From Branchiostoma floridae (taxonomy: Eukaryota > Chordata > Leptocardii > Amphioxiformes > Branchiostomatidae), in NCBI RefSeq assembly GCF_000003815.2, contig NC_049982.1, positions 5,485,105-5,549,104 on the forward strand: a stretch of 64,000 nt of DNA, read 5' to 3'. Positions 25,354 to 49,750 of this stretch are shown here, piece by piece. The notes below the pieces were generated by a model. The model worked only from the letters and a program-made list of their open reading frames with translations, was not told where the DNA came from and made no database searches. How positions within the stretch are numbered: the stretch's first letter is position 1; every line of letters starts with the position of its first letter. The translations under genes were made by a program, and so were the position numbers.

Positions 25354-25699
25354 GCAGTTACTGAAGCAACTGGATATGGTTNNNNNNNNNNNNNNNNNNN
25401 NNNNNNNNNNNNNNNNNNNNNNNNNNNNNNNNNNNNNNNNNNNNNNNNNNNNNNNNNNNNNNNNNNNNNNNNNNNNNNNNNGAACCATCTTGTTCAGCTG
25501 GGTCCGAAGTGTAATACTTAAATTAATTCCCACTTGGTTAATGGGGAACACTATATCAGGAATTTTGGTGGTTAGTATGTCAATTTTAAAGAGAGGGTTA
25601 TATAAATCGTATTTTGGTGGATCTATTAACTTGGGTAAGGGACCGAGTTTCAAAAGAGGAGGGTCTCCAAAACCATATCCAGTTGCTTGAGTAACTGCA
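25354..25699. repeat. Inverted repeat flanking the assembly gap
   Basis: GCAGTTACTGAAGCAACTGG... (25354-25381) is the near-perfect inverse of 25672-25699. Between them lie the gap and about 190 bases. A fold-back of this kind is a plausible cause of the gap, or the gap hides the middle of a mobile element. Confidence 0.6.
25382..25481. other. Assembly gap (100 N)
   Basis: Exactly one hundred undetermined bases, probably a placeholder of unknown real size. Confidence 0.99.
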
Positions 25700-25723
25700 T
25701 TTTGGTTTAAGAGTATATTATTA

Positions 25724-25931
25724 CTGTAAATGCATTTAAGTTCGCGGGGATTTAATTTCGCGGTAGCGGGAAAAAGGACTTTTCGCGGTGGATTTAAGTT
25801 CGCGGTAACATCATAGATTGCAGTCTAATACCATAATAGAAAAATGTTCGCGGTGGATTTAAGTTCGCGGTGAAGTGGTTACCGCGAAAACCGCGAACAT
25901 TAATCCACCGCGAACATTTATGCATTTACAG
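25724..25931. mobile_element. MITE with TA target duplication (copy 1)
   Basis: The ends CTGTAAATGCATTTA and TAAATGCATTTACAG (allowing one mismatch) are inverted and flanked by TA. The interior has repeated TTCGCGG words in both orientations and CATAATAGAAAAAT. A diverged second copy is at 36827-36981. A TA duplication suggests a Tc1/mariner-type mobilising enzyme; there is no ORF. Confidence 0.85.
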
Positions 25932-27295
25932 TACCTGTATGTCTAACCTACCTCAACGTATTGAGAATAATGATAAGATTTGCAGCTTTCCATTCTACTG
26001 CAGCACGAATTCCAGTTTTTATCTCGTTATTATATAGATGAAACAGTATGTGGGGTGGTATCTCCCTCCCCTCTGCCAAAGGGGTCATTCCTCTAATGCT
26101 GCAGTACCTGAAATTATTGCTAGGGGGCAAAATTGCCCCAATAGCTCCTCAGTCCCTACATACTACTCTCCAAGCAGAGGTTGAATCGCGCAGATATAGT
26201 AGTACTAGTCGAAAAAAATTACTCAGGAGTTTTTCTTAAGAAGAGACTATGATACTCAAATTCCAGCAAATCCATCGACATGATCTTGCAATGGAGTTAC
26301 AATGTTGGTGCGAACATACAGACTCAGCAATACACCCATTGGGAGTGAACCCTCTCTCCGGAGGTGTATGCATTGTCATGTTAGGATTTGTATAAACCTC
26401 TGGCGATCCCCACATGATAAGTCGGACCAAGGGGCTCTATATAACCTTGGTCGGACTTTCTGGTGATCCTTTTCAGGGGCTTAGACTGGCCTAGGGGGAA
26501 TGGGCCTGTCCATGGAGAAAATAGTGCAAGACATGAAAGTCCCACCTGTTACATTTAGGGACGTGAGCAGGGTAGGCTAGGTGCCATCCGATTTCTACCG
26601 GGGCTCTTTATACTCGCTAGTTTAAATAATCAGTTGGCTGTTTGTTTGTGGTATAAGTTAGCTTTTCTATACAGTAAATGCACAGAGAGATCTCTGTACA
26701 TTCTTTTCTGAATACTTTGTATTGTACTTTTGTGTGGTATGTGTCCTAATATGTATAGAATGACTGACAGTAGTAGTACTAGTAGTAGTATTTTATTCAC
26801 AATTAATGAGACAAGCACTGAGAATTACACAAATCTGTACAAAACTTTGCTTGCTATGAGCACTATGTCCTTCAAGCACTCGTACATAAAAAACACATTC
26901 GCAGCCAATACAATAATATATTACATAATGTCATATTGTTGAAATATTTCATGACTTATATTTTAAGGCAATATGACACTACAACTGGATAGAGTTAGGA
27001 GATGTACTTTTCGAGTGCCATCCATCACTCTACGTCTGCATCACTAGAATGAATTAAAAGAACAAATCACACATCTAATTGGAAAAATACAGTTGAACAT
27101 GTCAAAGTCACTAACTCGTGATCACGAGGATGGGTTCTCTAAATGACCTTAGCTTTGGTAAATTGGTTAAGTTGATGAAAAATTTTCCGTACTTCGAACT
27201 GTCTCTGCAACTCTACCAGTAGTCTTCATATATATAAATCATATTCTTGCCTGACCAAACGGTGCATTACATATTAAGCACTACATGTCAGACTA
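25932..27295. other. Intergenic stretch, no gene recognised; probable polyadenylation signal of gene A
   Basis: No family-like ORF is visible on either strand. On the minus strand AATAAA lies at 26797-26792, about 500 bases past the stop of the zinc-finger gene, and is a reasonable poly(A) signal for it. A short (AGT)n run at 26770-26790 sits beside it. Confidence 0.4.
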
Positions 27296-30119
27296 TCAAT
27301 GCTGTTCACTAGACATGGCATTGCAGGCTTTGCTGGACACAACTGCCCTTCCTCCCTCCTTGCTAATGATCCTGTGTTGTTTGCTGTAGGGCCCTCGCAC
27401 TAGGCTACCGTCAGGGACAATGCCGACTGTCGGGACTTTGACGGTGTTAGCCGTAGTGTACTGCTGGTAGTGCCTTACCACCATGTGCATTTCTGAGCCG
27501 TGCTTGGACTGGAAACGCTCCCCGCACACGTCGCACCGGAAGGGGTACCTCTTGGCGAAGCCCGACAGGGCCTCCTTCCGATTGTCCGCCAGCTGGTCCG
27601 CGCTCTCCGCCTTCAGCTTCTTCATCTCCCGCATGTGGATCCGGATGTGGCAGTTCAGGTGGTGCTGCGTGAGGAACGTGGCCTTGCAGACGTCGCACGC
27701 GTGTAGGTACCGCCGGCGCTTGGACTCGGGGGCAGCCGAACTACCCACGTGCACCTTCGACGGTGTCAGCCCCACTGACTGGTCAGTTCCCACTACGAGA
27801 GGCTTGTCCTCACATTTGGCGTTCCTTGCGTTTTGTTTAGTGCTCTTTTGTTCCCCTGTTGTTTCCTGTTGTTTGTAGAGGTGCATCACTTGGTGTCTTC
27901 TTGCCTCTTCCTCGGACATGATCTGTACCTTACAGGTCGCACAGTGTCGGGACTTGTGTGCGGTCATGAGATGACGAGCCAATCCTATCTTATTGTTGAA
28001 CTTCATGCTGCAGAAGTGACAGCGATAGTCACCTGCGTCTTCCTGACCAAACATTTGGGCCAGCGATTTCTCCACACAATCGTTATCACTACTCGTCACT
28101 GTGTCCCCTGCATCTTTTGATTTCGTGATTTCAATTTGTGAATTGCTGGAGACTGTTGGAACTTTTTTCGTCTTGGCTGTGGTGAAATTCAGATTGTGCT
28201 TGATACCCCGGTGTGTTCCGAGGCTGTGTACCGACTTGAAATGCTCTCCACACAGGTTGCACTGGAAGGGATACCTCTTGGCAAAGTCTGACAGTGCTTC
28301 CTTCCGTGTTTCTGCAAGTTGGTCCGCGCTTTCTGCTTTCAGCTTCTTCACCTCTCGCATGTGGATTTTCATGTGGCACTGTAAATTGTGCTGTGTGACG
28401 AACCAAGCCTTGCAAATGTCACACCTGCAAAAGTTTTTGGACATTTCAGGCAATGGTGCCTCCATCCTATCTTGAGCATCATTATTGCTAACTGTGTCAT
28501 CTCCATCTCCCGATGTCTTACTCTCGGAGGATGAAGGATTATCCTCCAGAGGAAGTATCTCCATCACTTGTAAACTACCCAGAGACACTTCTTTCACTGT
28601 GCACTTTTGAGCTGTGGGCAATGTGGTAGAGGTAGAGTTGTTCTTACTGGTCATGATCACTGTGTTCTTCTCTGCATGCCAAACATACTCAGGACTGTCG
28701 TCTGAGCTGGAAGTCTGAGGTAGATTCGAACCTGCAACAGTAGCTTCATGAGAAGCGGTAGGATCCCCTTGCAGTGTTTGTGACTCTTTTCCTACAGGTG
28801 TGACCTGTGAACTCTGTGGGCTAGGGTCACCTGCGTCTTGTTTGATAGAGGTGACCTGTGAGCTATGTGGGATGGGGTTACATGCCTCTTGTTTGATAGG
28901 TGTGACCTGTGAACCCTGCAGGATGGGGTCACATGCCTCTTGTTTGATAGAGGGGACCTGTGAACCCTGTAGCATGGGGTCACATGCCTCCTGTTTGATG
29001 GAGGTTACCTGTGAACCCAGCAGGATGGGGTCACAAGTTTCTTGTTTGGTACAGGTGACCTGTGAACCCTGTGGGATAGGGTCAAATGCCTCTTGTTTGA
29101 TAGAGGTGACCTGTGAACCCTGTGGGATGGGGTCACATGCCTCTTGTTTGATAGGGATGACCTGTGAACCCTGCAGGATAGGGTCACAAGTTTCTTGTTT
29201 GATAGAGGTAACCTGTGAACCCTGTGGGATAGGGTCACATGCCTCTTGTTTGATAAGTGTGACCTGTGAACCCTGTGGGTCACATGCCTCCTGTTTGATG
29301 GATGTGTTGGTATCACATGACCCTTGATTGACAGGTGTGACCTCAGTCCTGTCTACCAAACCATCTAAGGTAGGATCATGTGGCTCTTGTTTGATGTTGG
29401 TGAGAACATCCTCATCAGCAAATCCCACCTTCCTGTGGAAGATGTAGAAAACATCTTTCTTCATTCATTGTCAAAAAAAAAGCAGAACAGAAAAAAAAAG
29501 TGTTGACATGATTTGCACTGGGATAGGAGTGGCTTTACAACTATAACAGTAGCTGCAACATAAAAGTCACAACATTGCTTTGGCACACTAGGCTGGGTGA
29601 CCAAACTCCTTTGAGGCGGTGCACAGAAGACTTGCTACCAATCGGATATCTCCTGCTGCACGCGTATACTAACTTTACACCAGTCCGAGGTAAGCACATA
29701 GCGGGGGTCGGCTGGATAGTGGGGCGGGTGTAATGTTTGCGCATGTGTGTGGCAGGGGATCTGTAGCAAGTGCTCTGTGTCAGTGCGTGCTGCATCTCTA
29801 AAGAGTCTCTGGATGTCAGCTAGGGTTTAAATGAGTAGAGTAGAATGGCACACAGATAGAAATGACGTTTACACATACAAATATGGAGGCCTTGATTATG
29901 GGGAGTGTGATTTCCTGATAAACTAAAAAGCCAACAAAACAGAACATTGCAAGCAGTATTATCAAATGTCTGTTTTTTCGCGAATATAACGTTATCGTCA
30001 ATCAAGAGGTCATCACTTCCGATACTGCGGTTCGAGACCAGAAGCGTGTTTAATATTTCACAAACAGTATCAAGAAATGGAAAACCGTACCTTGGTGAAG
30101 TAGGCTTTCGTCTGGACAT
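27296..30119 (-). CDS. C2H2 zinc-finger protein with tandem SUMO-acceptor repeat (gene A)
   Basis: Two exons: 30119-30091 (29 nt: ATG, nine codons plus two bases, donor GTACGG) and 29432-27296 (acceptor TCTTCCACAG), 721 residues in phase. The alternative start inside the intron at 29464 is less likely. Residues about 22-215 are a 16-17-residue tandem repeat with core IKQEACDPIPQGSQVT; about ten units keep a psi-K-x-E/D SUMO consensus. Six C2H2 fingers follow in pairs, about 345-430, 480-535 and 588-665. The first and third pairs, with their long linker KKLKAESADQLA, are an internal duplication. Probably a nuclear DNA-binding regulator repressed or scaffolded through SUMO; the target is unknown. 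The N-terminal half is related to gene B next door. Confidence 0.85.
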
Positions 30120-31437
30120 TGAGATCTAATTTTGTTGACGAAGGTTTTCAAAATAACCAAACAAACGCGATTTCTTGTAGCTGTTATGATGACGGCCCCC
30201 GGTAGACGGCCCCTGCTTGTTTGGGGTCAGCACCGCATCCAAACAACTGTTCCATTGCACACGATTTAGCTAAAATTATGACTATTACCATCCAAAAATG
30301 CGATGGATGTAAAATTATGTGATTTTGTAGCATGATAGAAGTATCGTAACGCCACGTTAATTGTTTATCTTGAAATACAAGCCATTCGTTATGAATGTAT
30401 TTTCTTGGCGTTATGCTGCTGACGGGGAGGTCAAAGGTGAACTCCCGCGAGTGAATTTCGTGTTTTTTTCCCCCGCGATTTTCGTCAATGAACGTTGATA
30501 CGTTGTATTCGACGTTTTGTATCAAGTTTCTCAATAGAGAGTTGATATTTGGGCGGACTCAATGTGGTCACTGGTCCAAGGCAGTTTAGTCGATGGGTCC
30601 GACTATAAAGGAAGGACAATTTAATTTTTGGCAACGCCTAAAGAGTGGGACCGAAATTACGTATACATTGGAAATCTTTTGTTTTCTTACATGAAATGTT
30701 CTTTAGATCGACAGCTTGTGATTTTTTTTATTATCATAAGTACACCCGTCCTGTATATGACTTTATTTCAATCATTACTGGAAAAGATTTTTTTTTTTCA
30801 AAATTCTGGTGCAAACTTAAATTTGCATTTCCATTTTTATGCACCACAATATAAAAATGCATATTTCTAATGATGATATATTTATCTACTATGTATGGGG
30901 TATATGGATGTATTTGCAACAGCCATATGGGTGTTTGTCTATCATTTTGAAGACACCATTGAACACTTAATATCAAAGCTGAACTTTCATGTGAGGTGCC
31001 AATGTTAATGACACATTGTTGGTGGTTTTAACCTCCTTGGTGGGCCATATATAGCACAGCCACTGATCACCCTGACAATACAGTGGAATATGGTTACCAC
31101 TGAGGACCAATGATCAGACAGTGATGTAAGATTCCACTGAAAATATTTAATTATGGAATACCCATAGGTAACTGTAATATGTACTGAGAAGATACTTACT
31201 ATATTTATTTTATATGTACCTGACCTACCATATGGAATAACTGACAAATCAGACCAAAGATCATAAAACATCATGTTACAGTCAAGCCTGTAGAAGTGAC
31301 AAAAGGACCACCTGGCCAATGTTAACACCTTTTGGCAGTCCCTATAATTAATAGTAAATTGTTTTTCCCATTAACATTACTAGCATTTAGAATCCTGTCT
31401 ATGGTTCCCTGTCCACAAAGCAGAAGGTCAGAGTGGT
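30120..31437. other. Promoter side of gene A and AT-rich intergenic DNA
   Basis: About 30120-30600 is moderately G+C-rich upstream of the gene A start codon and is its likely promoter. Beyond that the DNA is AT-rich, with only short open frames lacking known motifs. AATAAA on the minus strand at 31209-31204 could end the gene B transcript. Confidence 0.35.
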
Positions 31438-31668
31438 TACCCTTGGAGCCAACCAGGACCAAGTAGCTAGCGAGTTTTGTTCGGAGAGCCAAGGCAGTCA
31501 GCCTGCAGATCTCACATAAGCGCTCCGGGGAGTTTAAGCCTGAAGGAGTTATTGCTACCCTTGATAAGGGCAGGTGGACCTCATCGGGCTTAAACTCCCC
31601 GGGCCTGCCTGTCTTGGGCCACCAAATAAACTGTCCTAGCTGCCCGATCCTGGCTGGCTCCCAGTTTA
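31438..31668. mobile_element. Fold-back MITE with 9-bp target duplication (copy 1)
   Basis: It is flanked by CAGAGTGGT at 31429-31437 and 31669-31677. The ends TACCCTTGGAGCCAACCAGG and CCTGGCTGGCTCCCAGTTTA are inverted. An inner inverted pair is GGGGAGTTTAAGCC / GGCTTAAACTCCCC. A second copy in opposite orientation is at 36549-36793. The 9-bp duplication suggests a Mutator-like family; there is no ORF. Confidence 0.85.
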
Positions 31669-31903
31669 CAGAGTGGTATTCTTGGACAGTTTTGACTGTA
31701 TCTTCATTTACTCAAATATAAGTTTGTGAACAGCATATAGTATATATGTTCAGTGCTTGATGAATGTCTGAATGTAGCATAAACTGTAACTTATGTAAGT
31801 GAACTCATACTATTGTTTGATAACAGGGTGGGTATTATAGGAAGACTTTTACCATACAAATCAGTGGGAATTGATTCATTTGGCATCTGCCTGGCAGTAA
31901 ACT

Positions 31904-34900
31904 TTATGCTTGGGACATCCATAAAGAGTCTGATAAAGTTGTATCTGCAGCTTTTGGCTTTTTACGTTGCTGAAACTTGTCAGTGTTCTTATTCTCTGCA
32001 CGCCTCTTTACCCCTTTAGTCCCTATACAACTGCCCTCATTATCATCACTTGGGGCACAGCTCACTTTGTGTACATGTGGAGTAGCGCTAAGGTGGTTAG
32101 CAGCCTCTGTTCCCTCAAGTTGATCAGCAGGTTGTCCCTGCCTACGGTGACTTCCTGAGGTGCAGGCCTTACTGTCATGAGCAGTACATTTTATTTGCAC
32201 TGCTTTATTCGACTTCCAACAGTTCAGCAGGTAGCGCATCTGCTCTAGTCGGCGCTTGAACTCTTCGTCCCCACAGAGACTCGTGACTTCAGCAATCTCT
32301 GTGGCTATCTCCAGCGCCTCTTTGTACTTTGTCTCCCTTGATTTTGGCGGTGAGGGAACCTTCTTTATCTCCTTGTTTATTTCATGGTTGTGGTTGTTGT
32401 TGAAGGCTTTGACGACGAGCTTTTGCTTGGCGCGGTCCGATGTCACATAGATACGAGCCGGACATTCCATTTTGATGCTCCTGAAACGTACAAAACACAG
32501 ATAATAAAATGCAATAATGAGTAAATGATTCTGTACATACATTCATTTTCTTTACTTTTTTTACTTAACCTTGATACATCTTCAGCCTAAGCCATTTTTC
32601 AAGATCCATAAGTTTAAAGCAAAAGAAGTTATGGATCGGGACCATGCAACATGGAGGAGTTAAAGAGAGGAGCAAGAGGTCAGTCCTTGACCTGGAAATT
32701 AGGCAGGCAAGTAGACATATGGCCAGAATTTATAATGTTTGAGTCAATGGGAAAACCAAGGTAATCAAAGAGGTTAAAAGGATATAAGGAAGCACTATGA
32801 AGTGGCCACAATAGCCAGCCAGGCCAATAGCCGTGTACTCACCACTGGTTGGCACGAATTCCGGTGCTTCGAGAGCGACGCTTCCCAGAATGTATACACC
32901 CAAACTGAATATTTGAGTAGACATGTGCACTGGGAAACTTCTGCACGAAGTCTGACAGTTTCTTGTTCTTTGCCTCCACCGTCGTGCAGAAGGTTTTGCT
33001 CAGCTTTACTTTGTTTAGTCTCTGGAACTCGTCCAGGACTGCTTGTAGCTCCTCCCATGTGGAGAAGGAGTCCCCCACCTGGAGATTGGCAGCTCTGTCC
33101 GCGATCGTTTGAGAGGGAACTTGCATGACGCTCATGTATGGGAATCCGTTGACTGCAGGCTCTCTCCCTGTCACTTGTGTGCCTTGCTCATCGGACTGGT
33201 GTATGCCAGTCTGTCCTTTCTGAATCCTTATTGCATTACCCTCATTTTCTGATGCCTGACTCTGAGAGGATGCAGGAGGAAGTATATTCACCCATGTGGA
33301 ACTGCCAGAGGCATTCTCTTGTACTGAGGGCCCATTAGTTGTGGCGGAACCATTCTTGCCTGTCTGGGTTGACATATTGTTCTCTGCTTGCCACACAAAG
33401 TTAGGATTGTGATCAGAGCTTGCAGGGTCAGACATACTTGAAGCAGACCCCATGACAGTATGATCCCCCTGTGGTGGTTGTGTCTCTTGTCCTACAGGTA
33501 TGACGTGTAGAGAGACATCCGGTGCCTCTGGGTTGATAGGAGTGATGTGCTCTGTTCTTGATACCTTTCCCTTCCTTCTACCTGTAGCTTTATTTGAGAG
33601 TCTAGCCGTAATAGAAAACAGGTCTCTTCTTTCTATCCTTTGGTTGATTACCTTACCACCTGGCATCTGTAGTCTACGGTTACTAGTATTTGTTTCCTGA
33701 TTGTGTGATGCAATCTCGTCTTTCACTCCCTCGAAGACAGGTTCTCTGGTTTCCTCAGTGACAGCTGTGGCTGTCCCTTCTCTGCTGTGATCACATGACT
33801 GTTGACTGACAGGTGTGACCTCACTGCTGACCTCTGAACTACCTAAACAGGAGTCGTATGGCTCTTGTTTGACAGAGGTGAGAATGACCTCCTCATGGTC
33901 CACCTCGTCGCCCACTGGTAGTGGTACCACACAATTGTTGACTCCAAACCCTTGGGCTTCGCCACCGTGTCTACCAAGTGCAGAAAAACCCTCCCACATT
34001 TTGGGGTTGTTTGTTTTCTTGTCCTTTAATACAACCTTGCAATTGGCCATCTCTACGACAGGTTCTGCCAGTTCTTTTCTGACAGGGGTGGCTTCCCTCA
34101 ATGTGCTTTGGGCAGGTGATTCCTGATTGATGGGTGTGACCTCAGTGCTGACGTCTCGTCGTCGTATCCATCTAATTTGGGAAGGACAACCCTACCAGTC
34201 CAGCCAAGGTCACTGTTGCAGAGAAAACAACATATTTAGTCATCATTGTTTAAAACATTGATTAATAAGGCGCCCAGAGCAGTTTTTAGAGCATAAAATT
34301 AAAAAATATTCTGGATGAGACAATTGGTGCGATAATCATATTGACATTTACTTCAACATACTAGCACATTTGTTTCGTTATTTCGTACTTTCAGCATTTA
34401 AAAGGACGCACAAACATGCCGCAAATGGACCCCTTTGATTTATTACATCCCTCAATAAATCAGCACAGGATCGAGCCACTACGGTTTCCCGTCTGTACTT
34501 TTCGGAGATTTTCGAACGCATGAGGTTAGAGTTAGGTGTGATGGGTCGATCAATGTAATATAACCAGCTGCTGCCGTGCAGCGTGCCTGCGAAGCTGGTG
34601 TGTTACGCCGAACGGCGGTTATACCGGCTATACAGATACAGATGAGGTCACCAAGCGAATTGAATCTGATTCGCCCGTTTGCAAATCAAAACCTTATTCG
34701 AACAAGTGATGAGATTTCCAGAAGTGTTCGGGATTCATTGGTCATGTTCGCGTGTGTTCCGCAAATTTGAAATAATGTCTCATGCAGCGCTCAGATTTGC
34801 AATGAGTTCTCACCACCCAACGACGTCTCATCTTTGCCCAATAAAGGTCGATATGCAATGAGATAGTGTTATCTAACCTTACTATGCGTAAAAATGACAT

Positions 34901-36013: not shown

Positions 36014-36548
36014 GTAAGTACACACGGGCAGCATTGTTTTGCTTAGAATTTCTGTAAAAATACCGCGACTCCTCGTGGCGAGGTCGGCTGCAGGGGGTGT
36101 TGGGTTGCGCCTATGTCTGTGAAAACGTGGAACCGGATCTTAATTCCATTTACTCTCTGAGATTCAGGTTCTCAACCACGTCTCAGCTTTACATTCAAGT
36201 TTGATACTGTCTTACTGATTGCATAACTTCAAGGAGTAGCCTATCAGTAAGTGGTGAGAGAATTAAAAATATCATGCGGTAAACCAAAGGGCCGCGGCCC
36301 CGCTTGCAAGCTGTCCAACCGGGCCGTCAGGGCTGTGCCACCATGGCTTATCATCATGAAAACAGATCGTGGGGCGCGATACCGTGTCAGCTCTGACTTG
36401 GCCCAAGCTAGGGTGTAGCCACTGTAGCCCGCAAATTATGGCCAGATGCTGGGCCCAGTCAGGAACGGCCACGATTATACCCCCAACATGCCCTTGGATA
36501 AAGAACCAGGCATATACATGATATAGCATAACCAAGAATCCAGTCTCC

Positions 36549-36793
36549 TACCCTGGGGGCCATCCGGGGTCAGGCAGCTTGGACAGTTTATTCGGTAGCC
36601 CAAGACAGTTGTGCCCGTCGAGCTCCTATTAGCGCCCCGGGGAGTTTAAGCCCGATTAGGTGACGATAACTCCTTCGGGCTTAAACTCCCCCGGAGCGCT
36701 AATGTGAGGTCGGCGGGCTGGCTGCCTTGGCTCTCCGAACGAAACTCGCTAGCTATATCGCAAGCTACCTGGTCCTGTCTGGCTCCCAGGGTA
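36549..36793. mobile_element. Fold-back MITE with 9-bp target duplication (copy 2, inverted)
   Basis: It is flanked by CCAGTCTCC at 36540-36548 and 36794-36802. The ends TACCCTGGGGGCCATCC and CTGGCTCCCAGGGTA match the 31.4-kb copy in opposite orientation, as does the inner GGGGAGTTTAAGCCC / GGGCTTAAACTCCC pair. Confidence 0.85.
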
Positions 36794-36826
36794 CCAGTCT
36801 CCTTATGTCATGGCCTACCGTAGTTA

Positions 36827-36981
36827 CTATAAATGCATTTAAATTCAGGGGGATTTAATTTCGCGGTAGCGGGAAAAATGACATTTCGCGGTGGTTTCAA
36901 TTTCGTGGTAACACCATAGACTGTGCAGTCAAATACCATAATAGAAAAATTAATCCACTGCGAACATTTCTGCATTTACAG
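36827..36981. mobile_element. MITE with TA target duplication (copy 2, nested)
   Basis: CTATAAATGCATTT ... TGCATTTACAG is flanked by TA on both sides and matches 25724-25931 (TTTCGCGGTAGCGGGAAAAA, CATAATAGAAAAAT). It is inserted in the left arm of the outer element. Confidence 0.85.
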
Positions 36982-36996
36982 TAGTGTGGGCTCTCT

Positions 36997-37181
36997 ACAG
37001 TCTCCAAGCAGACCCTACGGTGCCTTCGAGATACAATGTAGTATCAAAGCTGGCCAAGTAGTGTAGCCGGCACCGGTGCCCGTTTGACTCCCTTTGGTCG
37101 GCTATACTCCTTGGCCAGCTTTGAATAAGTTTGATACTACATTGTATCTCGAAGGCACCTTAGGGTCTGCTTGGAGGCTAA
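36997..37181. mobile_element. Long-arm fold-back element with 7-bp target duplication (nested)
   Basis: GCTCTCT flanks it at 36990-36996 and 37182-37188. The arms pair for about 65 bases on each side (TCCAAGCAGACCCTA, GGTGCCTTCGAGATACAATG, TAGTATCAAA, GCTGGCCAAG), with one short indel. It is inserted in the outer element. Confidence 0.85.
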
Positions 37182-38237
37182 GCTCTCTTTGGGGCCAGTG
37201 CATCTCTCAGCCGCTGGGGTAATCGTTCACACCCAGTAGGATGATCACGCGGTGGGACTTTGCCCAGTGTGATTTAATTGCCATATAATTATCCCACTGC
37301 GTGAAAATCCTACCGGGTGTGGACAATTACCCTGGCGGCTGAGAGCTGCACTGGCGCCGTAGAGAGCTTACACTAACTACGGTAGACCGTCCCTCAACGA
37401 GACTTGATTCCAGGTTAGCCATAGCAGTGATGATACAACCGTTGATCTGGGTACCAGTGAGTAGTGAGTAGAGATCCAATAGGAATCGTTGCATAGGGAA
37501 AACAAACAGACCTTGTATAAAAGACCGATTATCAGCTTTCGTTTGACCTTCCTTCCTCGTTCCTTCATGACCTTGGAAATGCCTCTGAGAATATTCTGCT
37601 CCCGATATATGCTTTAGGTTTCCTCATGATCTCCTGAAAAATCCTCCTTATATCAGGACTGTGGGTTCCCCAGTCAACCAGGAAGCAGCCCGATAATTAG
37701 AAAGGAATTTTGCGATTAAAAACGAGGCTGATATACCCGACTGACAGGTTTAAAACTCTATTTTTACCCATGACGCCAACAACTATGAATGTCATACGAA
37801 TCCATGCCACTTTTGTGTTCATGATGACAATTTGCAATTCTGGATACCTATAAATTGTTTCAGATCCACCTCACGAGGAGGCGTTCTTGATTGATGACTA
37901 ATTTATCCTTTTCAGCGTGCCAAACAGAACTACTTCATTTTTTGCATCATGCATGGATTCTAGATTTGTGCTACCCAGGACAATTCCACCCTGGTTGCCT
38001 TTGTCATTGGGTGAGGTGGGATGGATATCACCTGGGGCCCCCAAGTTAGTTCCCCAAGGAGTGTCTGATCTGTTTGGTCCAAAGATTCACCATCACCTGT
38101 GCACTATTAGTCTATAACCCAGTGTAAGGCCCGCTTTAGACTGAAGACAGTTAAATAATCATGTGACTGCCTTTAACTTGATTGCAACTTTTGAAAGATC
38201 CACAAAAGAGGGCTTGCACATCCCTTTTCTGTAAGAC

Positions 38238-38271
38238 CAAGGAGGTTAAAGAACTTTCTTTAACCTCCTTG
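38238..38271. mobile_element. Micro-palindromic insertion, 34 bp, 7-bp target duplication
   Basis: A 16-base arm CAAGGAGGTTAAAGAA, two central bases and its exact inverse are flanked by GTAAGAC at 38231-38237 and 38272-38278. It has the same arms as the element at 46986. Confidence 0.8.
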
Positions 38272-38481
38272 GTAAGACTAAGAGGTAGGCAATGTTAATT
38301 TTTGTAGTTCATAGCTGGATAGCCACAAGGCACGATTTGCATATAAATTGACTTTATGTTCTATACTACAGTGTAATGCGTAGGCATTTTGACTGAATGT
38401 TTTCCCCTCATTTAGGCCCTAATCAAAAGATTGACCAAGGTATTGTTGTTGCTTACCAGTCCCTTCTGCTTGTTTCTGCAG

Positions 38482-38569
38482 AATTTAATGAAAGCAGAGA
38501 GACGCCAACACAGTTGCAGTTGGAAGCAGAGAGACCGCAGCACATCTGTAGTTCCCCTAACTCCAGAAG
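38482..38569 (+). other. Possible untranslated exon of the multi-zinc-finger gene
   Basis: TTGTTTCTGCAG precedes and GTAGTC follows an 88-base segment. The next acceptor, TCTTTGACAG at 38727, leads into the ATG exon. This is splice-site evidence only. Confidence 0.3.
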
Positions 38570-38757
38570 GTAGTCAAGTCCTTTTTCTCCATTTCTGCTA
38601 TACGATAGACAGAGAGCTTTGAGAAATTCTTAAACTGTTGTATTGTTGTGTTGTGTTATATGCTTTGCTTGTTGACTTTCAACTGAGTAATCAATATTGT
38701 AACAGCATTAGGTATTATCTTTGACAGGACAAAATTTGTGGCTTTGCCAACAGCAAC

Positions 38758-41700
38758 ATGGCGGAAGAGGGAGAGGAAGAGATCCACTCAGAGTCAGAGG
38801 AAGAAGATGGGGAAAATGGAGGAACACTGAAATGTACAGAATGTGACAAAACCTTCAACAGTGTCTCTAAGCTGAAGTCTCACACCAGAGTTCATGCTGG
38901 ACAAAACCTGTTTGGCTGTAAGCACTGTCCGGCTAAGTTTGTGTACGAAAATCAGCTAAAGCTTCACAGCAAAATCCACGAGGGGACCGGTGGCTACGCC
39001 TGTGCTAAGTGTCCAGCAAAGTTCACCTTGGCGTGGAGCCTCAAGCTGCACGAGAAAACCCATGTCACGAAGAAGGCCTTTCCATGTTCGGAGTGCTCAG
39101 CAAAGTTTGACAGCGCCGGCAGCCTGAAGGAACATGAACAATCTCACAGGTTGCCGTATGCCTGCATGCAGTGTACAGCAAAGTTCAGTACTGCGAGAGA
39201 TCTCTGGGAACATGAGAATGTCCACAACGATGAAGAATCAGGCAGCAATGTGAAGGAACCTGCAGAGGTCTCCATTTCAGTGGCAACTGAACAGGACAGT
39301 GGCAAAAGCGTTGGCAAGAAGACACTGCACGGCTGCACACAATGCAGCACATGGTTTGTCAGCAGAGATCATCTTCAGCAACATAAATGTACTAAGAGTA
39401 ACAGTAACACTCGCATCGAAGAAAAACAGTATCATTGCTCACAGTGTTCTGCAAAGTTTGCAAAGAAGAAAAACCTGAAGGAGCATGAAAGAAAGCATGC
39501 TAAGAAGACAAAATACACAGCTAAGGTTTCCCAGAAAACCCAAAACACAGCTGTGGCCAGTAGTGATGGTCTTTCAGAGATTATTGACCTGACTGATTCG
39601 ACAGACGAGCCTCAAAATACCACTGAATATGGCAGTCTTCAGCAAGATGGAGCTGGTAGTGAAGATCTCGAAGATGAGATTGTGGATGTGACCAGCATCG
39701 AACCGACAGATGAGCATCAAAATATTAGTGAATCTGACCGTTTAAGTGAAGGTCTTGAAGAGGTTGTGGATGTGACAAGCATTGAGCCAACAGATCAGGA
39801 TCAAAATACCAGTGAATCTGACCATTTTCAGAGAGATCAACGCAAGACAGTGGATGGGAAGCCACAGCACACCTGCCTACAGTGTAATGCTACGTTTCCC
39901 AGTAACTCAAAGCTGAATAGACACATGACGGTGCACACAGGCGAACTTAAGTACCACTGCTCCCAATGTTCTGCCGGTTTCTCCACAAAAAAAGGCCTGG
40001 AAAAGCACATGAAGAGACATGGCAGACAGCAAGGTAGTAGCGGTACCCAACGCCCTGCCAAGGTCACTTCTCGGAGTAAGTTCAAAAAGAATAGGAAGCC
40101 CCAAAAGGGTGCAAAACCGTTCAGTTGCCCCGAATGCCCAGCAAAATTCGTCAGCTACGTTGAGAAAAAGAGCCACATGAAAGTGCACGGCCAGGAGGAC
40201 AAGACTCACATCTGCTCTCAGTGCGGCGCAAAGTTTGCCCACTACAACAGCCTGGTGAGTCACCAGCGGTACCACCAGGGGGAGAAGAAGGTGGTGTACA
40301 GCTGCAGCGACTGTCCGGCCAAGTTCGCACAACAGCACAGCCTCTGGCTGCACAGGAGGATGCACGGGGAGGCGGTGCACAGCTGCCCGGAGTGTCCGGC
40401 CGTGTTCAAGAACCATGCTCACCTTGCCAGTCACGTGCTGGTCCACTCGGCTCAGGACAAGCCGTACAAGTGCAAGCACTGTTCAGCCCAGTACAATTGT
40501 TTAAGTCATCTCACATACCACGAAAAGCTCCACCAGAATGTGGCAGGCAGCACGCAGCCAACTGAAGCTTTATTGAGAAGCAATGAAGACAAGCAGGTTG
40601 TCGAAGAGACAGGAGAGAAGACGAAGCTGGTTGTCGAAGAGACAGGCAAGAAGAGGAAGCGGGCACCTCAGCAAGTGGTTGCGCCTTCCAAAAAGAGCTA
40701 CGACTGTAAGGAGTGTCCAGCAAAGTTCACTAATGCTAGTCACTTGTGGAGCCACATGCAGGTGCATTATGGTGGAGACAAGCCCCGCCACTGCCCCCAC
40801 TGCTCTGCCAAGTTTTCCTCGCCCTATCACCTCTCCAGGCATCTGAAGGTACACAACGAGACAGAAAAGGATGGCTCACCTCTTCAAGATGCTGAGGCTA
40901 CCCAAGAAGCACCCAGGAAAAAGCAGAAGAAACAGCAACCACCTGCAAGCAATGACTCGCCCTCTGTCTCTGATGCTGAAGCCAGGCCAAAAGCACCCAG
41001 GAAAAAGCAGAAGAAGCAGAAACCACCTGCAAGCAATGTGAGGTACAGCTGTTCGATTTGTTCTGAAGAGTTCCTTCATCCATATGACCTGAAAGTCCAC
41101 TGGGCAAGCCACACTATTGAAAAAATATACAGCTGTGACAAGTGCCCTGCCAGCTTCAAACGTGTTGGTCACCTCAGGCGACATCAAAAGGCCCACAGTA
41201 GAAATGGACATTACTGTTGCCCTTACTGCTCAGTCAAATATGACAGACTTGCGCATTTAAGAATGCACATGAGGGCCTACCATTCAGGTGTCAACAGGGC
41301 CAGGCCATTCGTCTGTCCAGAGTGTCCTGCTAATTACATCCGTGCTGATCACTTGAAAAGCCACTTGAAAGTGCACAGGGAAGGGTCAGTCCGTAAACCG
41401 TACAGGTGCCAACATTGCACAGCCAGCTTTCTGACACCCTCGCATCTTACAAATCACATGAAGCTCCACACTCAGGAAGATGAAGGCAATGAGGGGTTGA
41501 AGGAACACCTTTGTTCGCAATGTCCGGCTGGGTTCAAGGATGCCCGTGGTCTAAGCGAACATCTTAAGATTCACACGGAGAAGTCAAACGTATGCCCGGA
41601 GTGCCCAGCAAGGTTCAATCGTCCCGACCACCTGAGGAATCACATGTTGTTACACAAAGAAGTAGAACAAGACGAGAGACGCTACCACTGCAAGCATTGC

Positions 41701-44700
41701 AGTGCCAAGTTTAATGCCAAGCATCAGCTCACAAACCATGAAAAGCTTCACAGTGAGCCCAGTGCAGTGACAGCAACACCCAATGAGACATCTTCCAAGT
41801 GCCCACATTGTTTAAGACGATTTAAGACAGTTAAGACGATGAAGAAACACACGAGGCAGTGCCTCATGGCCATAGGAAACAGGCCCTACACCTGTCCACA
41901 CTGCCCAGCCAAATTTGCCCTCGCTTCAACCCTGGAGAGGCATGTTAAAACTCACAGTTGTGAGAGACCAGATGATCACCAACAGGAAGCTTCTGCATCA
42001 TCTTCTGCCACCTCCAGGCCACAATCAGCTGGTGATGAAGGGAGGGACTATCACTGTGGAGAATGTCCTGCCAAGTTTTCTAGTGAATATAAGCTGAATA
42101 GACACCAAGAAATACATGATGCCACTAAGCCGAAGCCATACAGCTGCTCCTATTGCAGTGCCAAGTTCTCTATTACTGGCCAACTTGCGCAGCACGTCAA
42201 AATTCACAAATTGGTTCAAGAAGTCTCGCCTCAGCCTGTCTCAGAGTCAGAGCAAGTTCTTCAAATTGCTGCAAAGAAAAGAGATGAGAGGGTGGCATTC
42301 CGTTGTAGCGTGTGCTCTGCAATATTTACGACACAAGCACACCTGAACGCACACAAAGAGGTGCACTTACGAGGTGATCTCTACACCTGCTCAAAGTGTC
42401 CAGCTAAGTTTGCCCTGCAAAGTGACCTGGAAGACCACAAGAAGACACACTCACACTCAGCAAGTGATCAAGAATCTGGAATAGCTGAGAAGTCGACTTC
42501 GGCAAAATCTGCAGAAAAGACATCTGCTGATAAGAGCGTGAAGTCTGGTGCCAAGAAGACCAAATGGTTCAGGTGCCGATACTGCAAGTCCAATTTTAGA
42601 GGGGAAACGCGACTGGCAGTGCATATCAATGTCCATCATTGGGAACTTCAGCAGAAAAGCAGCTCCGAGCCATCAAAGAAGGCAGTGTCTAATGATCAGG
42701 ACTGTTTCAATGGCCAGACTTACAAATGTCCACAGTGTCCTTCCGAATTCACCAATGCCCTGAACCTTAAGGTTCACCTGCAGACCCATCAGGGAAAGAG
42801 GCAACACAAGTGCCAGAAGTGCCCAGCTGTCTGCTCCAATCCCTCTAGTTTGAGAAGGCACATGGACACACACCATGGAAATGGGATCCAGAAGAGACAT
42901 TACGGTTGCCCGCATTGTCCTGCCAGGTTTATTCGCTTGGAACATTGCAAGGCCCATCTGATTGTCCACACCAGGGAGGGACCAGGGCTGTTTCGCTGCA
43001 CCCTCTGCACTGCAAAGTTCCTCCATACTAAACAGCTAAATATTCACATGGCATTACATAATGGCAAGAAGATATTTAAGTGTGATACGTGTTCGTTGGA
43101 GTTCTTAACTCTGGAATGTCTGAAAAGTCATCTAAAGATTCACCCTGAGAAACCTTCCTACTCAAAACAACCAAGCAATGCTGCCAATAGAAGTACGGTA
43201 CAGAATGATGATGCAGACAAGAGGATCTCTTCAGCCGACCGTCCGTACACTTGTCAGAAGTGTTCCCGTAAGTTCTTGAGCTCCCAGCAGCTGGAGTATC
43301 ACATGGTGTGGCACAGCGGGGACAGGCGACACGAATGCTCCCTTTGCTCCCAGAACTTCCCCACAGCCCAGAGCCTGAAGGAGCACAGGAAAACCCACGC
43401 TGGTGAGAGACCTTTCAGGTGTCCAATGTGCCCTGCCGACTTTGAATATAAGAGCAACCTGAAGAGGCACGTAGAAAGAAAGCATTTCAAAGAAAGTGAT
43501 GAAGGCAACACAAGTGGTACCCCAACAACTCAAGGGACAACACATAATGCCCAGAAAGGCAGCCCTGATGGGAGTAACGAAAATTCTACTGAGCAGCAGA
43601 AAACCAGCTCTGGCAGAGGGAAATCTTATGCTTGTTCAGCATGTTCAAAAGAGTTTGACAGGTTTAAAGATTTGAGAAAACACAGGAAAACCCATTCTGG
43701 AAAAAAGCGTGCAAAAGGTAACGGCAAAAGGCAAAGATGTGAAGAGTGTAACGCCACCTTCAGCGAATTACGTTGCCTTGAACGTCACCAACGAACCCAC
43801 AGTGGAGAGAGACCCTTTGCCTGTCCTGTGTGTTCGCTTCGGTTTGCGCGAAAGGATAATGTATTGAGGCATGTTGCTAGCGTGCACAAGGAAAACGAGG
43901 CAGCCGGCAACTCTAACTCTAACCAGGAGAAACACCCCAAACCTGACAAGAAGTTACACAACTGTCCTGAATGCCCAGCCAGGTTTAGCACTGTTGAACT
44001 GTTGGCGCATCACAAGAAAATCCATCGCATCTCTTCCAAGGGAAAAGCAACACTAAACAATGTGAGTGGTCTTTTTTCTCTTATCAGTCAGATAATAGAA
44101 AATTATGTATTACCCAGTAAGGGGCAGTTTTTTTTTTATACTAGTACACACGTCTGGAAGGAGAGTGTGGACTTGGTCCGGGCAAGCAGTCCGCGATGAT
44201 GATGATGAGTACAGAAGTAGAGAATACTGTATGAGATGTAAGGTTCCAATGGCCATTAGACAAATTTGTAAGCATTGTGTTGCCACTGGTACTTCTGGGA
44301 ATTTTATTGCACATGTGCTAATGCTCTCTGTTCAGAGAACAAAATGACATCATCTGATCATGTGTCAATAACTTGAATGAGTTGAAGAATCATGATTTTA
44401 TTGCTTGAATTCCCTACAGAATTCCTCGGTAGAGTCATCGAACCCGGCCACCCTGGAAGTGATGGAGACGCAGGTTGTCCACGAGCCCGGGGCGGCCTCA
44501 CATGTCGAAGCCGTCGTCGTGGCCAACCTTGAGCAACTTCCCATACAGGAGTCGGCAAGCGCCACAGTACAGAAGGTGTTACAAACAGATGACCAGCCTC
44601 CGTCGTCTGGAAGTGCCGAATCTCCTGAGCTCGCACAGCACCATCAACCAGGGAGTAGCTCCTCTTCAGGGCCTCCAGATAGCCACCCGGCACAAACAGC

Positions 44701-46516
44701 AACAGTGTCAAGACCAGCTGTTTCAACCCATATGAGGGCTTTAGCGGAAGAACGTACGTCCCTTCAAAAGACCAATGAACAAGTCCCTGCCCCCGGCAAT
44801 GTGCCACTTCTGAACGGACTGTGGCAGAGAGTCGAGACGACCAGCCCTCCCCAGGGACTTGTACCAGTGGCGTTGTCCTACAGTGAGGCATTACAGGCTG
44901 GGGAGACCATACTACAGGCGTCGATGGCAAACAGCTACATAGGAGGGAACACCATTCAACAACAGATAACAGAGACAAGCCCATCCCCGAATTCATCTGG
45001 ACCAGGTCGGTTGTCCCAATTGCCTCATGATGCCCAGCTGCTTAAACCGCATCAGGGCCATTCCTCCCTGCAGCAAAATGATGGAAGGAGGACAGAAGAT
45101 ACACAGAACAGTGATGAGAAAGATATACTTAACAGTGATGAGAGTAAGCTCAATGACATTAGATACTTCTGCATTGGGTGCAAGCAGGTCTTCCTCACAG
45201 AGAAAGATCTGAAGGCCCATCTGCAGGGAGATCATCAAGCACCAACTCCAAGCCAAGGGAACTCCTCTCATCATAGGATTGTCATGCTACAGAGGAAAAC
45301 TACTGACGCTGATCAGGGAAAGACGTCCGTGTGCAGTGAAGCAAACGTGCTGGCTGTTCCCAAGCAGAGCATGAACGGAGTCCTGAGAAACTGCAGCCAT
45401 GTTTTCTGCGTTCTCTGTGCCGGAAAGGTCAACATCAACGATATCTCCCACCACGTTAAGATTAAACACGGAATACTTTCGTTGGACGGGGATTATCCCT
45501 TTGGGCAAGCGACCAGCTGCATGACCTGCAGTCGAAGGCTGTATGGTGAAGAAGAGGTACAGCAACACACAAGGAAGAGGCACATAGTTCTGAGGGACAC
45601 GGCAGGGCCATTTCTTGCATACGACAACACCCAGAGTTTGAGCAATAGTGAGGACGACCCAAGACAAGATGACAGGCAACATGCTGCTGTTTTGGGATTG
45701 TCAACAAAGGAGGGAGACGTTTTGGCTGATAAGTCAAGTTTGTCTAAGAGTGATGGGTGTAGCAGGATGGCAAGTGAGAAGGAACAAATCCCCACTGTCG
45801 GTAATTCCTCATCAGAAAAAGCAAGTGTACACAGTTCTTCAATGACAGCCTCGGTGAAGGTTGAGAAAAACAACAGGGAGGCAGTTTTGTTGAAAGGAGC
45901 ATTTTCACTTAATGATGCCCAGAAGAAAAAGTTTCTGATGATTTCCAGGGCAGCTGATGCATGCATGAAGAAAAAGCGATATCTCGTCATCCGTGGAAGT
46001 GACGGCACTGATAGATCAGCCTGCTCCTCCCCCCAAACAGACTGCAGTAGCTCCCGCGATACTACTTCTTCCCCTCTGCTGAACTCCCCAGAGCAGCTGT
46101 GCCATATCAAGACTGAAGGAGGGGAGAAGCCAAGTGCTTCCAGCAGACTCCATGAACTGCCAAAATCGAACAACAATTCAACTGATGTGCCTGGTCTGCA
46201 AAAACAGTTGGCCTTGGTGGCCAGTATTCTATCATCAACCCTTAAAAAGAACTCATCCACTGAAAAGAACTCTAAGATGAGAGATCACAATGTCAATTCT
46301 CAGGGTACCAAACCCACTATTGAGAGGCAAACGGTAAAGGACTGTCTCAGGGGTGTAAGCGTAAAGTCAGAGCCAGTCACCTCTGATGTTGACAGTGCTG
46401 ATGCGGGTCTCTCTGCAGCTTCAGATGCGGAAGACATGAATGATCTTGGTGACGTCACTGCCATAAATGAACCTCTTCAGTCCATCAAGGAGGAAGCAAT
46501 AGTTGAGGAATTCTAG
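38758..46516 (+). CDS. Giant C2H2 protein with about 43 zinc fingers in one exon and a SUMO-motif tail
   Basis: Exon 38758-44061 (1768 codons) splices with GTGAGT to the acceptor TTCCCTACAG and exon 44420-46516, in phase, giving about 2466 residues. The ATG at 38758 follows an acidic start MAEEGEEEIHSESEEEDGE. About 43 fingers have the unusual core C-x2-C-(P/S)AKF rather than C-x2-C-GKAF, and only two classic (S/A)GERPF linkers are present. Two are degenerate (for example a C2HC at about 1020). Residues about 275-365 hold three acidic repeats with IIDLTD, IVDVTS and VVDVTS, which look like SUMO-interaction motifs. The second exon adds three more irregular fingers and acceptor-type VKVE, IKTE, VKSE and IKEE. 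Presumably a nuclear nucleic-acid-binding regulator; no orthologue is recognised. AATAAA at 46867-46872. Confidence 0.9.
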
Positions 46517-46866
46517 GAGAATATTACTTACACTAAAGAACATGCTCTTTTTTGTATCAAATTGTACATGTTATATGTATAAATTATATTGGTGCTATTT
46601 TTGTATGTATAAATTGCGAGCTAACATTTATATTTATACCAGACTGGAACTAGAATTCTGCCTTTTCTTTTCTGTACACATTTTTAGTTGGCATTTCAGA
46701 TAGATGAACGACAGCCAGGTACCCAGTTAGCTACCATGGTAAAAAAATTGTCTTAGTAGTGTCACAAACATATCCAAATTTTTCGAAAAAAAAATGAAAA
46801 TACAGCCTTAAAGTGCATGTATTGTTGAGGCATATTATTTACATATGTATATTGTTTTCTCGGACT

Positions 46867-46872
46867 AATAAA
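46867..46872 (+). terminator. Polyadenylation signal of the multi-zinc-finger gene
   Basis: AATAAA lies 350 bases after the TAG at 46514-46516, with nothing coding between. Confidence 0.6.
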
Positions 46873-48010
46873 AGCTCCTTGGTTATTTATGTATCATGAG
46901 AATTACCCAGAATTAACTAACAAACCAACCAATTAGCGAGTCAGGTTGGAACTGAGTAAGGATTTAAATCCTTTATTGAGGGTAGCAAGGAGGTTAAAGA
47001 AAGAGTCTTTCTTTAACCTCCTTGAGGGTAGCAACTGGTTGTTATTAAATAACAAACTGGTGAATACAGGTATCTCTTACCATGCCTACTTACGCCTTGA
47101 GTCGGTTATTGTCGTCAGGACAAAGAAACTAGCTTGTTTTGTATTTGTGGGCCAAATTATCGGACCAAAATGAAGCCCTGGCTTAGCGCCAAATTCCTGT
47201 TAATTTTTAAGATTCGTTTGGTTGATTTTCTTTGAGTGGTCAGGCAGCATTGTCTTTTTGTCTGTGCGTTTATTTGATCACGATAACCTCGACTTGACAT
47301 TCAAGGGCCGCTTTTCATGGCGGTACTTCACCAAAAGAATTCGACCAAAAAAGTTTACAAGGGCAGCCATTCCACCCAAGGAGATTGACAGTTCATTGGT
47401 CCACGCTAAGGTGAGCATTCTCCCTCCGAAATGGCAAATGCATCGCGGCCGGACAAACCCTCTGGTTACAAAATTCCCTTGGCAAATTACTCTCCCTATA
47501 CTAGTAATAGCTAGAGTTGGAGTGTTTACCACGGTTCTTAGACTGAGTCAACAATGAGCTTTTGATCTCTAGTCAAGTTGTCAACGTATTCAAATAAAAA
47601 CTATCAAAGGATTAATAAGTAACCCACATTGCTACCGAAGGATAGTTACCGCGTGACTTGTTATGACAATAACAAACTATGTACACGCCAGTGAAGCTCA
47701 TGGACAGTGCTACAGACTACTAGTAAAACAGCATGCGATGTATTGATATCGATGTCTCCACACAGTTTCTCATGAATCTCATGATACTTTTATTTGATGA
47801 GAGATTAAAACAACGCTACAAAGAATTCTTTACTTATACTTGCCAGACTCTTGATACAATGTCTCCGAGAAAATTGCCTATGGGGTCGACCTTTAGCCAA
47901 TTTGTCACTCGAGGTGTCCATAAATCCAATTAAAGGCGGACCAAGTCCAGAGTTCTTTATAGTTTCACGCTAGAACCCTGATGGACGGCGGTTGACTCTA
48001 CAGCTCTTCC
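46873..48010. other. Intergenic region between zinc-finger and otopetrin-like genes
   Basis: It contains the micro-palindrome at 46986. Open frames on both strands at about 47222-47557 carry no motif I know. The last 300 bases are presumably the promoter of the otopetrin-like gene. Confidence 0.4.
46986..47024. mobile_element. Micro-palindromic insertion, 39 bp, 7-bp target duplication
   Basis: A 19-base arm CAAGGAGGTTAAAGAAAGA, one central base and the exact inverse are flanked by AGGGTAG at 46979-46985 and 47025-47031. The arm shares its first 16 bases with the element at 38238. Confidence 0.85.
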
Positions 48011-49750
48011 ATGGCTTCCACCGCAGATCTCGTGCCGGTGCCGACGAGAAGGTGCCCCTCCTGCCGCCCATGTGGTCCCAACTGGGTGACCAAGTGGCTC
48101 GGAAGGCGCTTGGGGAAAACTCTCTCCCAGCAGGCCGTGGTCGCCATCGCTGTTTGCGTCACGGTCTGCGTCGCCGTCGGCTCGTTCCTGGCCTTCCAAG
48201 ACGCCATGTCAAGCTGCGAGGACAAATCGGAGTCCCTGCTGATCATTCTCACCGTCTGCGTCTACCTCGGGATCCCCTGTCTCGCTGCTATCGTCTTCGC
48301 CATCCGCCGGGATCCCTTCATGTCGGCAAACGGCAGCGACGGAGTGTTTGGGACCGAAGGCTTGGAACTGTCTCTGGTTTTCGCGTCAATCGTTCTGCCA
48401 GCGCCCGGCTGCGTTGCTCTGGACGTCGCCTTCTTCCTGCTCGTCGGTTCCTGCTTCCATCGCGATCGACACTTCACCTTGTCCCTGCCCGGCTATGGAA
48501 ACAGCCTGGCGTTCCACGTGGGCAGGTTGGTCTTCGTGGTTGCCCAGACGGCGATGTTCGGCTGGTGCTTCAGGACCAGGAGCTTCGCCAGGCAGAAAGT
48601 CTACACGGCTCTGCTCTTCACGGTCGTCGCCATGGCGAACTTGGCATCTTGGTTCTACGAAATCGTGGACAGGCCGTCCGTCCTGTGCACCAACGACAAC
48701 ACTTGCTGGGACGCCGCCGTCCCTAAAGTGAACGAATGCCCCGACGCAAACGACGTTTTGACTGTGGAACACTGTACCTTTGTGAAGTTTCAGCTGTACT
48801 GTCAGCCGCTTGTCGCGACGTTTGCCCTCCTCTCCCTTCCGACGATGTACCACATGTGGTGCAAAGCACGCGAGGGGGTGTTGGAGAACACCGCCGAGAC
48901 GCGCCCCGGACAGCCGAATGTCTCCGACCGGCGTCGAGGCGCCGGCGCGTCAGGGAAGTTGTTCTTGGTGACCGTTGCTGTTCTCTCCGTCACCTTGTGG
49001 GTCATCGCTCACCAGGCGACCACGGTGTCGGGCACGGCGGACTACTACAAGGTCGTTCTCTACTACTCCTTCAAGGTACTGTACTTCTCCTTGTTTATAA
49101 TGTCGACCCTAGCGGGATGCGCCCGCACCCGAGCCGTCGGTCAGCCCGAGTATCGGACCCGCGCCGCCGACGTCTTGGTGCTCCTCCTCAGCGCGGTGGG
49201 ACTGTTGGCGCTCGCTGGAAGGGTGTTGTGGGGAGTCGGCAGTCTGGCACCCAATAGTCATACGCTTATACAACAAGGCTGTACATATGACATAATGGAA
49301 GGCGACTTCCATAAACTAAAAGCCGTCCTCATCACAGACGTTGTGCTGACTTTGGCGCAACTCATTCTCCAGACGACGGTCCTGGTCTCAGCCACGACTC
49401 ACAAGCAACTGGAAGGCGGCGTGGAATCCCAGTACGGTCTCCTCTGCCTCTTCAACTTCTGCGTCTGGATCAACGGGAGTTTCTTCGAGGCGCAGTCCAC
49501 GCCCCTGACGACGTGCTACACCACACCTGTGCAGCGAGCGGCGTTCGGGTATGGCGACTGGAACGTGTTCTTACATCTGCTGCAGCCGCTCTGCGTGTTC
49601 TACTGGCTCTGGTCCTTCCTGCTCATGGTACGGCTGCTCTTACGGAGGGTGCGCCTGGGTTTGGTGACGGCCACCGAAACCGTGCACCGCCAGCGCAGGC
49701 CGGCTGTATCCGCGTCCTTGGACTCCCTCATCCGAGAAACGCTCACTTAA
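48011..49750 (+). CDS. Otopetrin-like 12-transmembrane protein, single exon
   Basis: This is a 579-residue frame from ATG 48011 to TAA 49748-49750, with no intron and G+C-rich codons unlike the AT-rich flanks. Hydrophobic segments lie at about 42-62, 75-98, 118-148 (possibly reentrant), 166-187, 196-219, 262-281, 316-335, 345-370, 385-408, 433-459, 475-493 and 518-545, the twelve expected of otopetrin proton channels. Family-like signatures are a QT-containing fourth helix, NLASWFYEIV in the fifth, and a C-terminal pair FNFCVWINGSFFE then LLQPLCVFYWLWS, recalling otopetrin NLxxWxxDSFxE and the closing PLCVFYRFHS. Cysteines in the loop at about 225-255 suggest an extracellular disulfide. It probably sits at the plasma membrane and conducts protons. 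The subfamily is not resolved, and a distant multi-pass family remains possible. Confidence 0.65.
   Translation: MASTADLVPVPTRRCPSCRPCGPNWVTKWLGRRLGKTLSQQAVVAIAVCVTVCVAVGSFLAFQDAMSSCEDKSESLLIILTVCVYLGIPCLAAIVFAIRRDPFMSANGSDGVFGTEGLELSLVFASIVLPAPGCVALDVAFFLLVGSCFHRDRHFTLSLPGYGNSLAFHVGRLVFVVAQTAMFGWCFRTRSFARQKVYTALLFTVVAMANLASWFYEIVDRPSVLCTNDNTCWDAAVPKVNECPDANDVLTVEHCTFVKFQLYCQPLVATFALLSLPTMYHMWCKAREGVLENTAETRPGQPNVSDRRRGAGASGKLFLVTVAVLSVTLWVIAHQATTVSGTADYYKVVLYYSFKVLYFSLFIMSTLAGCARTRAVGQPEYRTRAADVLVLLLSAVGLLALAGRVLWGVGSLAPNSHTLIQQGCTYDIMEGDFHKLKAVLITDVVLTLAQLILQTTVLVSATTHKQLEGGVESQYGLLCLFNFCVWINGSFFEAQSTPLTTCYTTPVQRAAFGYGDWNVFLHLLQPLCVFYWLWSFLLMVRLLLRRVRLGLVTATETVHRQRRPAVSASLDSLIRETLT

Follow-up and report, generated by a model that had tools for sequence, protein, structure and literature searches.

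Two tiny palindromes with 7-bp target duplications in Branchiostoma floridae as probable excision footprints of a P-superfamily transposon

Described P-type systems and the palindromes of Branchiostoma floridae

The closest described counterparts of two minute palindromes in Branchiostoma floridae are found among P-type DNA transposons and the scars that these leave on excision. The palindromes, of 34 bp (element 1) and 39 bp (element 2), lie in a stretch of 64,000 nucleotides on contig NC_049982.1 of assembly GCF_000003815.2 (positions 5,485,105 to 5,549,104 of the forward strand), which was analysed as a whole and is referred to below as the window. Drosophila P makes target duplications of 8 bp; unusually, its transposase places the 5' cut, on the non-transferred strand, 17 bp into the terminal repeat, so that 3' extensions of 17 nt result (PMC7776569). 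Single-stranded extensions of 17 nt from the P transposase cut are also described in PMC10983969, and 17-nt 3' overhangs remain on the chromosome ends after P excision (PMC2895639).

The repair of such ends is documented in Table 1 of PMC2895639, which lists 66 sequenced end-joining junctions from Rad51-mutant flies. Half of these (33/66) have kept both target duplications and 12 nt or more of each 17-nt tail, over spans of 25-44 bp; within this both-tails class, 19 were joined at 2-nt microhomologies, 1 was blunt, 8 carried fillers of 2-6 nt and 5 carried fillers of 10-14 nt. In the remaining junctions one or both tails were trimmed further, and 18 of these had shrunk to 5-8 bp by joining at long microhomologies. 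The palindromes of B. floridae resemble the both-tails footprints in their intact duplications and in the inverted arrangement of at least 12 nt of each tail, with 0-14 nt between the tails in the fly. They differ in that Drosophila P has an 8-bp duplication and the end CATGATGAAATAACATA, although its first bases (CATGATG) have the CA start in common with the elements described here. Furthermore, the fly footprints were recovered in mutant animals, whereas the palindromes were read in a genome assembly, and no parent element was seen in the window.

Other members of the group share single features with the locus. Galileo, a P-superfamily member, makes 7-bp target duplications, as found here, with the target consensus GTANTAC (PMC4168063); by our own count, the duplication of element 1, GTAAGAC, agrees with five of the six specified bases of that consensus. 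Galileo differs in its long terminal repeats and in having another end, and no coding part was seen in the elements described here. The zebrafish Pdre2/THAP9 elements are P-like, come from a chordate, have 13-bp terminal repeats that start with CA (CATACC) and include multiple internally deleted copies; they differ in having an 8-bp duplication and the end CATACCTGTCAAC (PMC10983969). The P-derived miniature inverted-repeat transposable elements (MITEs) of Anopheles gambiae are non-coding and carry P-like terminal repeats (PMC1562414). These form established families with 8-bp duplications, whereas the elements described here have nothing between their ends.

Anatomy of the two palindromes

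An earlier note on this DNA had claimed perfect palindromes of 34 and 39 bp, each between different exact 7-bp repeats, and both the positions and the sequences proved exact (Table 1). The two palindromes begin with the same sequence, CAAGGAGGTTAAAGAA, and the ends of both open with CA (CAAGG). Element 1 comprises symmetric arms of 16 bp with 2 bases between them, and can be parsed as 16 nt of a left transposon end followed by 18 nt of a right end, or as 16 nt, 1 filler base and 17 nt. Element 2 comprises symmetric arms of 19 bp with 1 base between them; it can be parsed as 17 nt, a 5-nt filler (GAGTC) and 17 nt, or as 19 + 1 + 19. Deletion of the five central bases AGAGT from element 2 yields element 1 exactly, so that the centres of the two copies differ, yet the shorter is nested in the longer. 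The target sites of the two elements are unrelated.

The window was scanned for palindromes whose exact arms measure 10 bases or more, with at most 40 bases between the arms and an exact 7-bp flanking repeat, and elements 1 and 2 were the sole matches. A looser scan, which allowed flanking repeats of 6-10 bp and arms of 12 bases with up to 2 mismatches, again with at most 40 bases between them, returned the same two elements, a reading of element 2 shifted by one base, and a single 6-bp case at 37057 that sits within a larger inverted repeat. When the joined flanks of each element were compared with the window, they matched only themselves, and no empty site was present within it.

Sixty windows simulated under a first-order Markov model contained no such combination of palindrome and 7-bp repeat, which bears out the view that the structures are not due to chance. 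The paired arms (exact, with 0-12 bases between) had no match in viral contigs or in prokaryote genome contigs, element 2 with its duplications had no match in plasmids, and the 839-bp neighbourhood of element 2 had no match in Escherichia coli genomes; a cloning or host artefact is thus unlikely. Nineteen stretches of viral contigs each carry one unpaired match to the 16-mer, which includes AAGGAGG, a motif of the ribosome-binding type. Nothing was found in favour of chance, contamination or a cloning artefact, and these have a negligible probability as explanations.

Strong folding as a single strand (z -7.6 and -8.8) is a property of both palindromes, and it favours an origin by integration of a folded single strand, as the earlier note had suggested, or by some other hairpin-generating route unrelated to transposon ends. 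However, every palindrome folds, and the fixed 7-bp duplication, together with a 16-nt end shared between two unrelated sites, suggests a sequence-specific recombinase. The route is not needed to account for a fixed duplication with identical ends, and we regard it as highly improbable. An imperfect hairpin (47032-47062) adjoins the right duplication of element 2, with a z of -4.1 for 47025-47065.

Table 1. Positions of the palindromes, their duplications and the single arm in the window
Feature	Position	Strand	Basis
Element 1, left 7-bp target-site duplication, GTAAGAC	38231-38237	.	
Element 1, 34-bp palindrome, putative excision footprint	38238-38271	.	Compared with the Drosophila P junction table
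Element 1, right 7-bp target-site duplication, GTAAGAC	38272-38278	.	
Element 2, left 7-bp target-site duplication, AGGGTAG	46979-46985	.	
Element 2, 39-bp palindrome, putative excision footprint	46986-47024	.	Compared with the Drosophila P junction table
Element 2, right 7-bp target-site duplication, AGGGTAG	47025-47031	.	
Single arm, 13 bp matching the putative transposon end CAAGGAGGTTAAA, no partner found	31027-31039	-	Exact match

Probable excision footprints and the competing explanations

By comparison with the fly junctions, both palindromes are probably the repaired excision scars of a DNA transposon of the P superfamily (P element/THAP9-type), a reading to which we assign a probability of roughly 0.65. 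A transposon with the ends CAAGGAGGTTAAAGAAA... would have inserted and duplicated 7 bp of its target. Its transposase would later have cut it out by long staggered cuts approximately 17 nt inside each end, and the broken chromosome would have kept 3' single-stranded tails bearing approximately 17 nt of each transposon end. End joining would then have sealed the two tails, trimming them slightly and adding a few filler bases. The product predicted from these steps has the order duplication, end, filler, inverted end, duplication, and this is the order observed. The sequence directly shows the anatomy, the exact duplications, the symmetric arms and their agreement in span with the Drosophila P junctions; that a parent transposon existed, what class it belonged to, how far its cuts were staggered and how the break was repaired are what we infer.

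With spans of 34 and 39 bp, the palindromes lie within the 25-44 bp range of the both-tails fly junctions. Each element is bordered on both sides by an intact duplication of the 7-8 bp size documented for P-superfamily transposons, and retains up to about 17 nt per end with little filler, the 19 + 1 + 19 parse of element 2 being slightly over this length. The length of retained end would point to P, because other transposon superfamilies typically leave much shorter footprints. The CA start of the ends is in keeping with the P superfamily; it is a weak marker, as unrelated elements share CA starts. CANRG is a fuller form of this terminal motif, and the literature matches listed for that string do not bear on it. 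The anatomy supports a link to a transposase that produces 7-bp duplications, and the CA start and the 7-bp duplication together are consistent with the P superfamily and are not proof of it. A random internal deletion would seldom leave 12-20 nt at both ends: in 1.6% of events for a 100-bp parent, 0.4% for a 200-bp parent and 0.016% for a 1-kb parent, odds that selection for small copies could alter. Objects of this type are already known from laboratory flies, and natural cases in the present genome would add to them; a limited survey of the open-access literature, in the portions accessible, brought up no natural P-type footprints of this kind, and the end sequence had no match in the text of the open-access literature searched.

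The same anatomy could be produced by ultra-short MITEs, that is, by a 39-bp element consisting of two abutting ends and moved in trans by a P, Mutator-like or hAT-like transposase, with the 34-bp copy having later lost its five central bases. We consider this explanation possible, second to the footprint reading and rather doubtful. It accommodates the exact 7-bp duplications at unrelated sites in both elements, the identical arms, the derivation of element 1 from element 2 by loss of AGAGT and the presence of two copies within 64 kb. However, 34-39 bp is far below known sizes, with non-autonomous Drosophila P elements measuring 0.5-2.8 kb, and full-length P has 31-bp ends plus internal transposase sites of 10 bp, for which 34-39 bp leaves no room (PMC7776569). 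Internal room for transposase binding sites, which would be expected of a P-type MITE, was lacking in both elements. On geometric grounds, an element of 34 bp would keep no duplex after cuts with a 17-nt stagger: P-like cuts made 17 nt inside each end would split it into two non-overlapping single strands, and it would thus be immobile. No mobile element of 34-39 bp stood out among the open-access literature matches listed, which cover that literature in part.

The stronger claim holds that each palindrome is itself a live transposon of 34-39 bp, composed solely of two abutting ends and still mobilised in trans with 7-bp duplications; we regard it as unlikely. No mobile DNA known to us is as small as such transposons would be, and if they were real, they would imply a transposase that needs neither an internal binding site nor a long stagger. 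The earlier note had offered extreme deletion products still mobilised by a transposase as one explanation. A transposase that duplicates 7 bp does fit the anatomy, and this part of the proposal is retained; deletion products that are still mobilised are judged less likely than footprints of a longer element.

A number of observations weigh against the interpretation of the palindromes as P-type footprints. The 64-kb window yielded no element of greater length with these ends, and two scars within 9 kb, unaccompanied by any longer copy found in 64 kb, would represent a high density. Pfam detected no transposase catalytic domain in the 26 window reading frames scanned, which comprise six frames (E ≤ 0.001) and a further 20 (E ≤ 0.01) out of the 75 stop-to-stop frames that reach 100 aa. 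The scan returned two matches of transposon-derived appearance, FAR1 (below the cut-off) and ZSWIM3_N, which we take to be tied to Mutator-like elements rather than to P. The identity of element 1 with element 2 minus AGAGT also fits copies of one 39-bp element, an origin that is to be kept in consideration, and nested footprints of one end sequence would look like this as well.

The target sites and the fly comparison add further reservations. The duplication of element 2, AGGGTAG, fits just two of the six specified bases of the Galileo consensus. The 15-bp target motifs of the two elements are each palindromic at only 6 of 15 positions, although transposon target motifs, including those of P, are described as palindromic (PMC4168063). 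In the fly data set, the 33 of 66 junctions outside the both-tails class have another outcome, and the junctions used for comparison derive from Rad51 mutants; in wild-type flies, P excision mostly yields copying plus end joining (PMC2895639).

The extent of the symmetry is also at variance with simple joining of 17-nt tails. In element 2 the symmetry reaches 19 nt and in element 1 the right side agrees to 18 nt, in both cases beyond 17; were the filler random, this would be a coincidence of approximately 1 in 64 by our own arithmetic. Two readings would account for this: a stagger of 19-20 nt at these sites, or the copying of several bases from a template ahead of joining. The latter leads to aborted gap repair, a close relative of the footprint interpretation, in which synthesis-dependent copying followed by end joining would have halted after a few template-copied bases and given the smallest possible internal-deletion derivative. 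This would account for the agreement at bases 18-19, past 17. Copying usually proceeds much beyond a few bases, which argues against it. Incomplete copying with end joining makes up most wild-type Drosophila P-excision products (PMC2895639); however, telling this process apart from simple end joining would require the sequence of the parent. We hold aborted gap repair to be improbable.

The single arm, neighbouring features and significance

The earlier note had pointed to a lone arm-like sequence elsewhere in the window. An exact match to the 13-mer CAAGGAGGTTAAA is present there (Table 1), and its chance expectation is approximately 0.004 exact copies per window over both strands. The resemblance is weaker than had been implied, however, as it ends at base 13, base 14 being A instead of G. 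No inverted partner was found within 15 kb when the 13-mer was allowed up to 3 mismatches and the 7-bp flank up to 2. The 7 bases beside the arm, GTGGGCC, recur at three other sites in the window. The copy upstream at 21693 on the + strand was considered as a partner and rejected, as no CAAGG follows it. The lone arm may be what is left of an end of a decayed element, or a chance match.

Element 1 lies approximately 490 bp upstream of an uninterrupted C2H2 zinc-finger reading frame of 1,813 aa (38758-44199), and element 2 lies approximately 470 bp downstream of a reading frame that ends at 46516. An otopetrin match is present at 48011-49750. The FAR1 match (below its curated cut-off) and the ZSWIM3_N match fall in neighbouring frames on the - strand, within 31904-34101, and these frames are possibly a transposon-derived host gene. 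The gene content of the window fits an animal nuclear genome. A 51-bp unit is repeated in approximately nine copies (28800-29279) within a - strand zinc-finger frame.

The window also contains several larger repeats. An element of approximately 260 bp is present in two copies of opposite orientation that are 74% identical (31430-31685 and 36532-36800); the second copy has inverted ends (36542-36581 and 36761-36800) and a self-complementary centre (36613-36718), and the pair looks like a MITE family. Another MITE family is likely represented by repeats of 88% identity at 25721-25845 and 36824-36950, the former within a stretch (25722-25933) with several inverted repeats and motifs of the TTCGCGG type. 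Two abutting inverted-repeat hairpins with arms of 50 and 79 nt occupy 36999-37370 and are joined at 37179. They are enclosed by 36796-37404, which itself has inverted ends (76%), forming a nested or composite element. The window includes 100 N, located to 25382-25481 by a break in the self-alignment, which represents an assembly gap.

If the palindromes are indeed P-type excision footprints, such structures should not be entered in annotations as miniature transposons. Even after the loss of the element, the scars would disclose its end sequence, the length of its target duplication, the approximate stagger of its cut and the outcome of repair. Tiny palindromes with short duplications would then constitute a genome-wide fossil record of P-type transposition.

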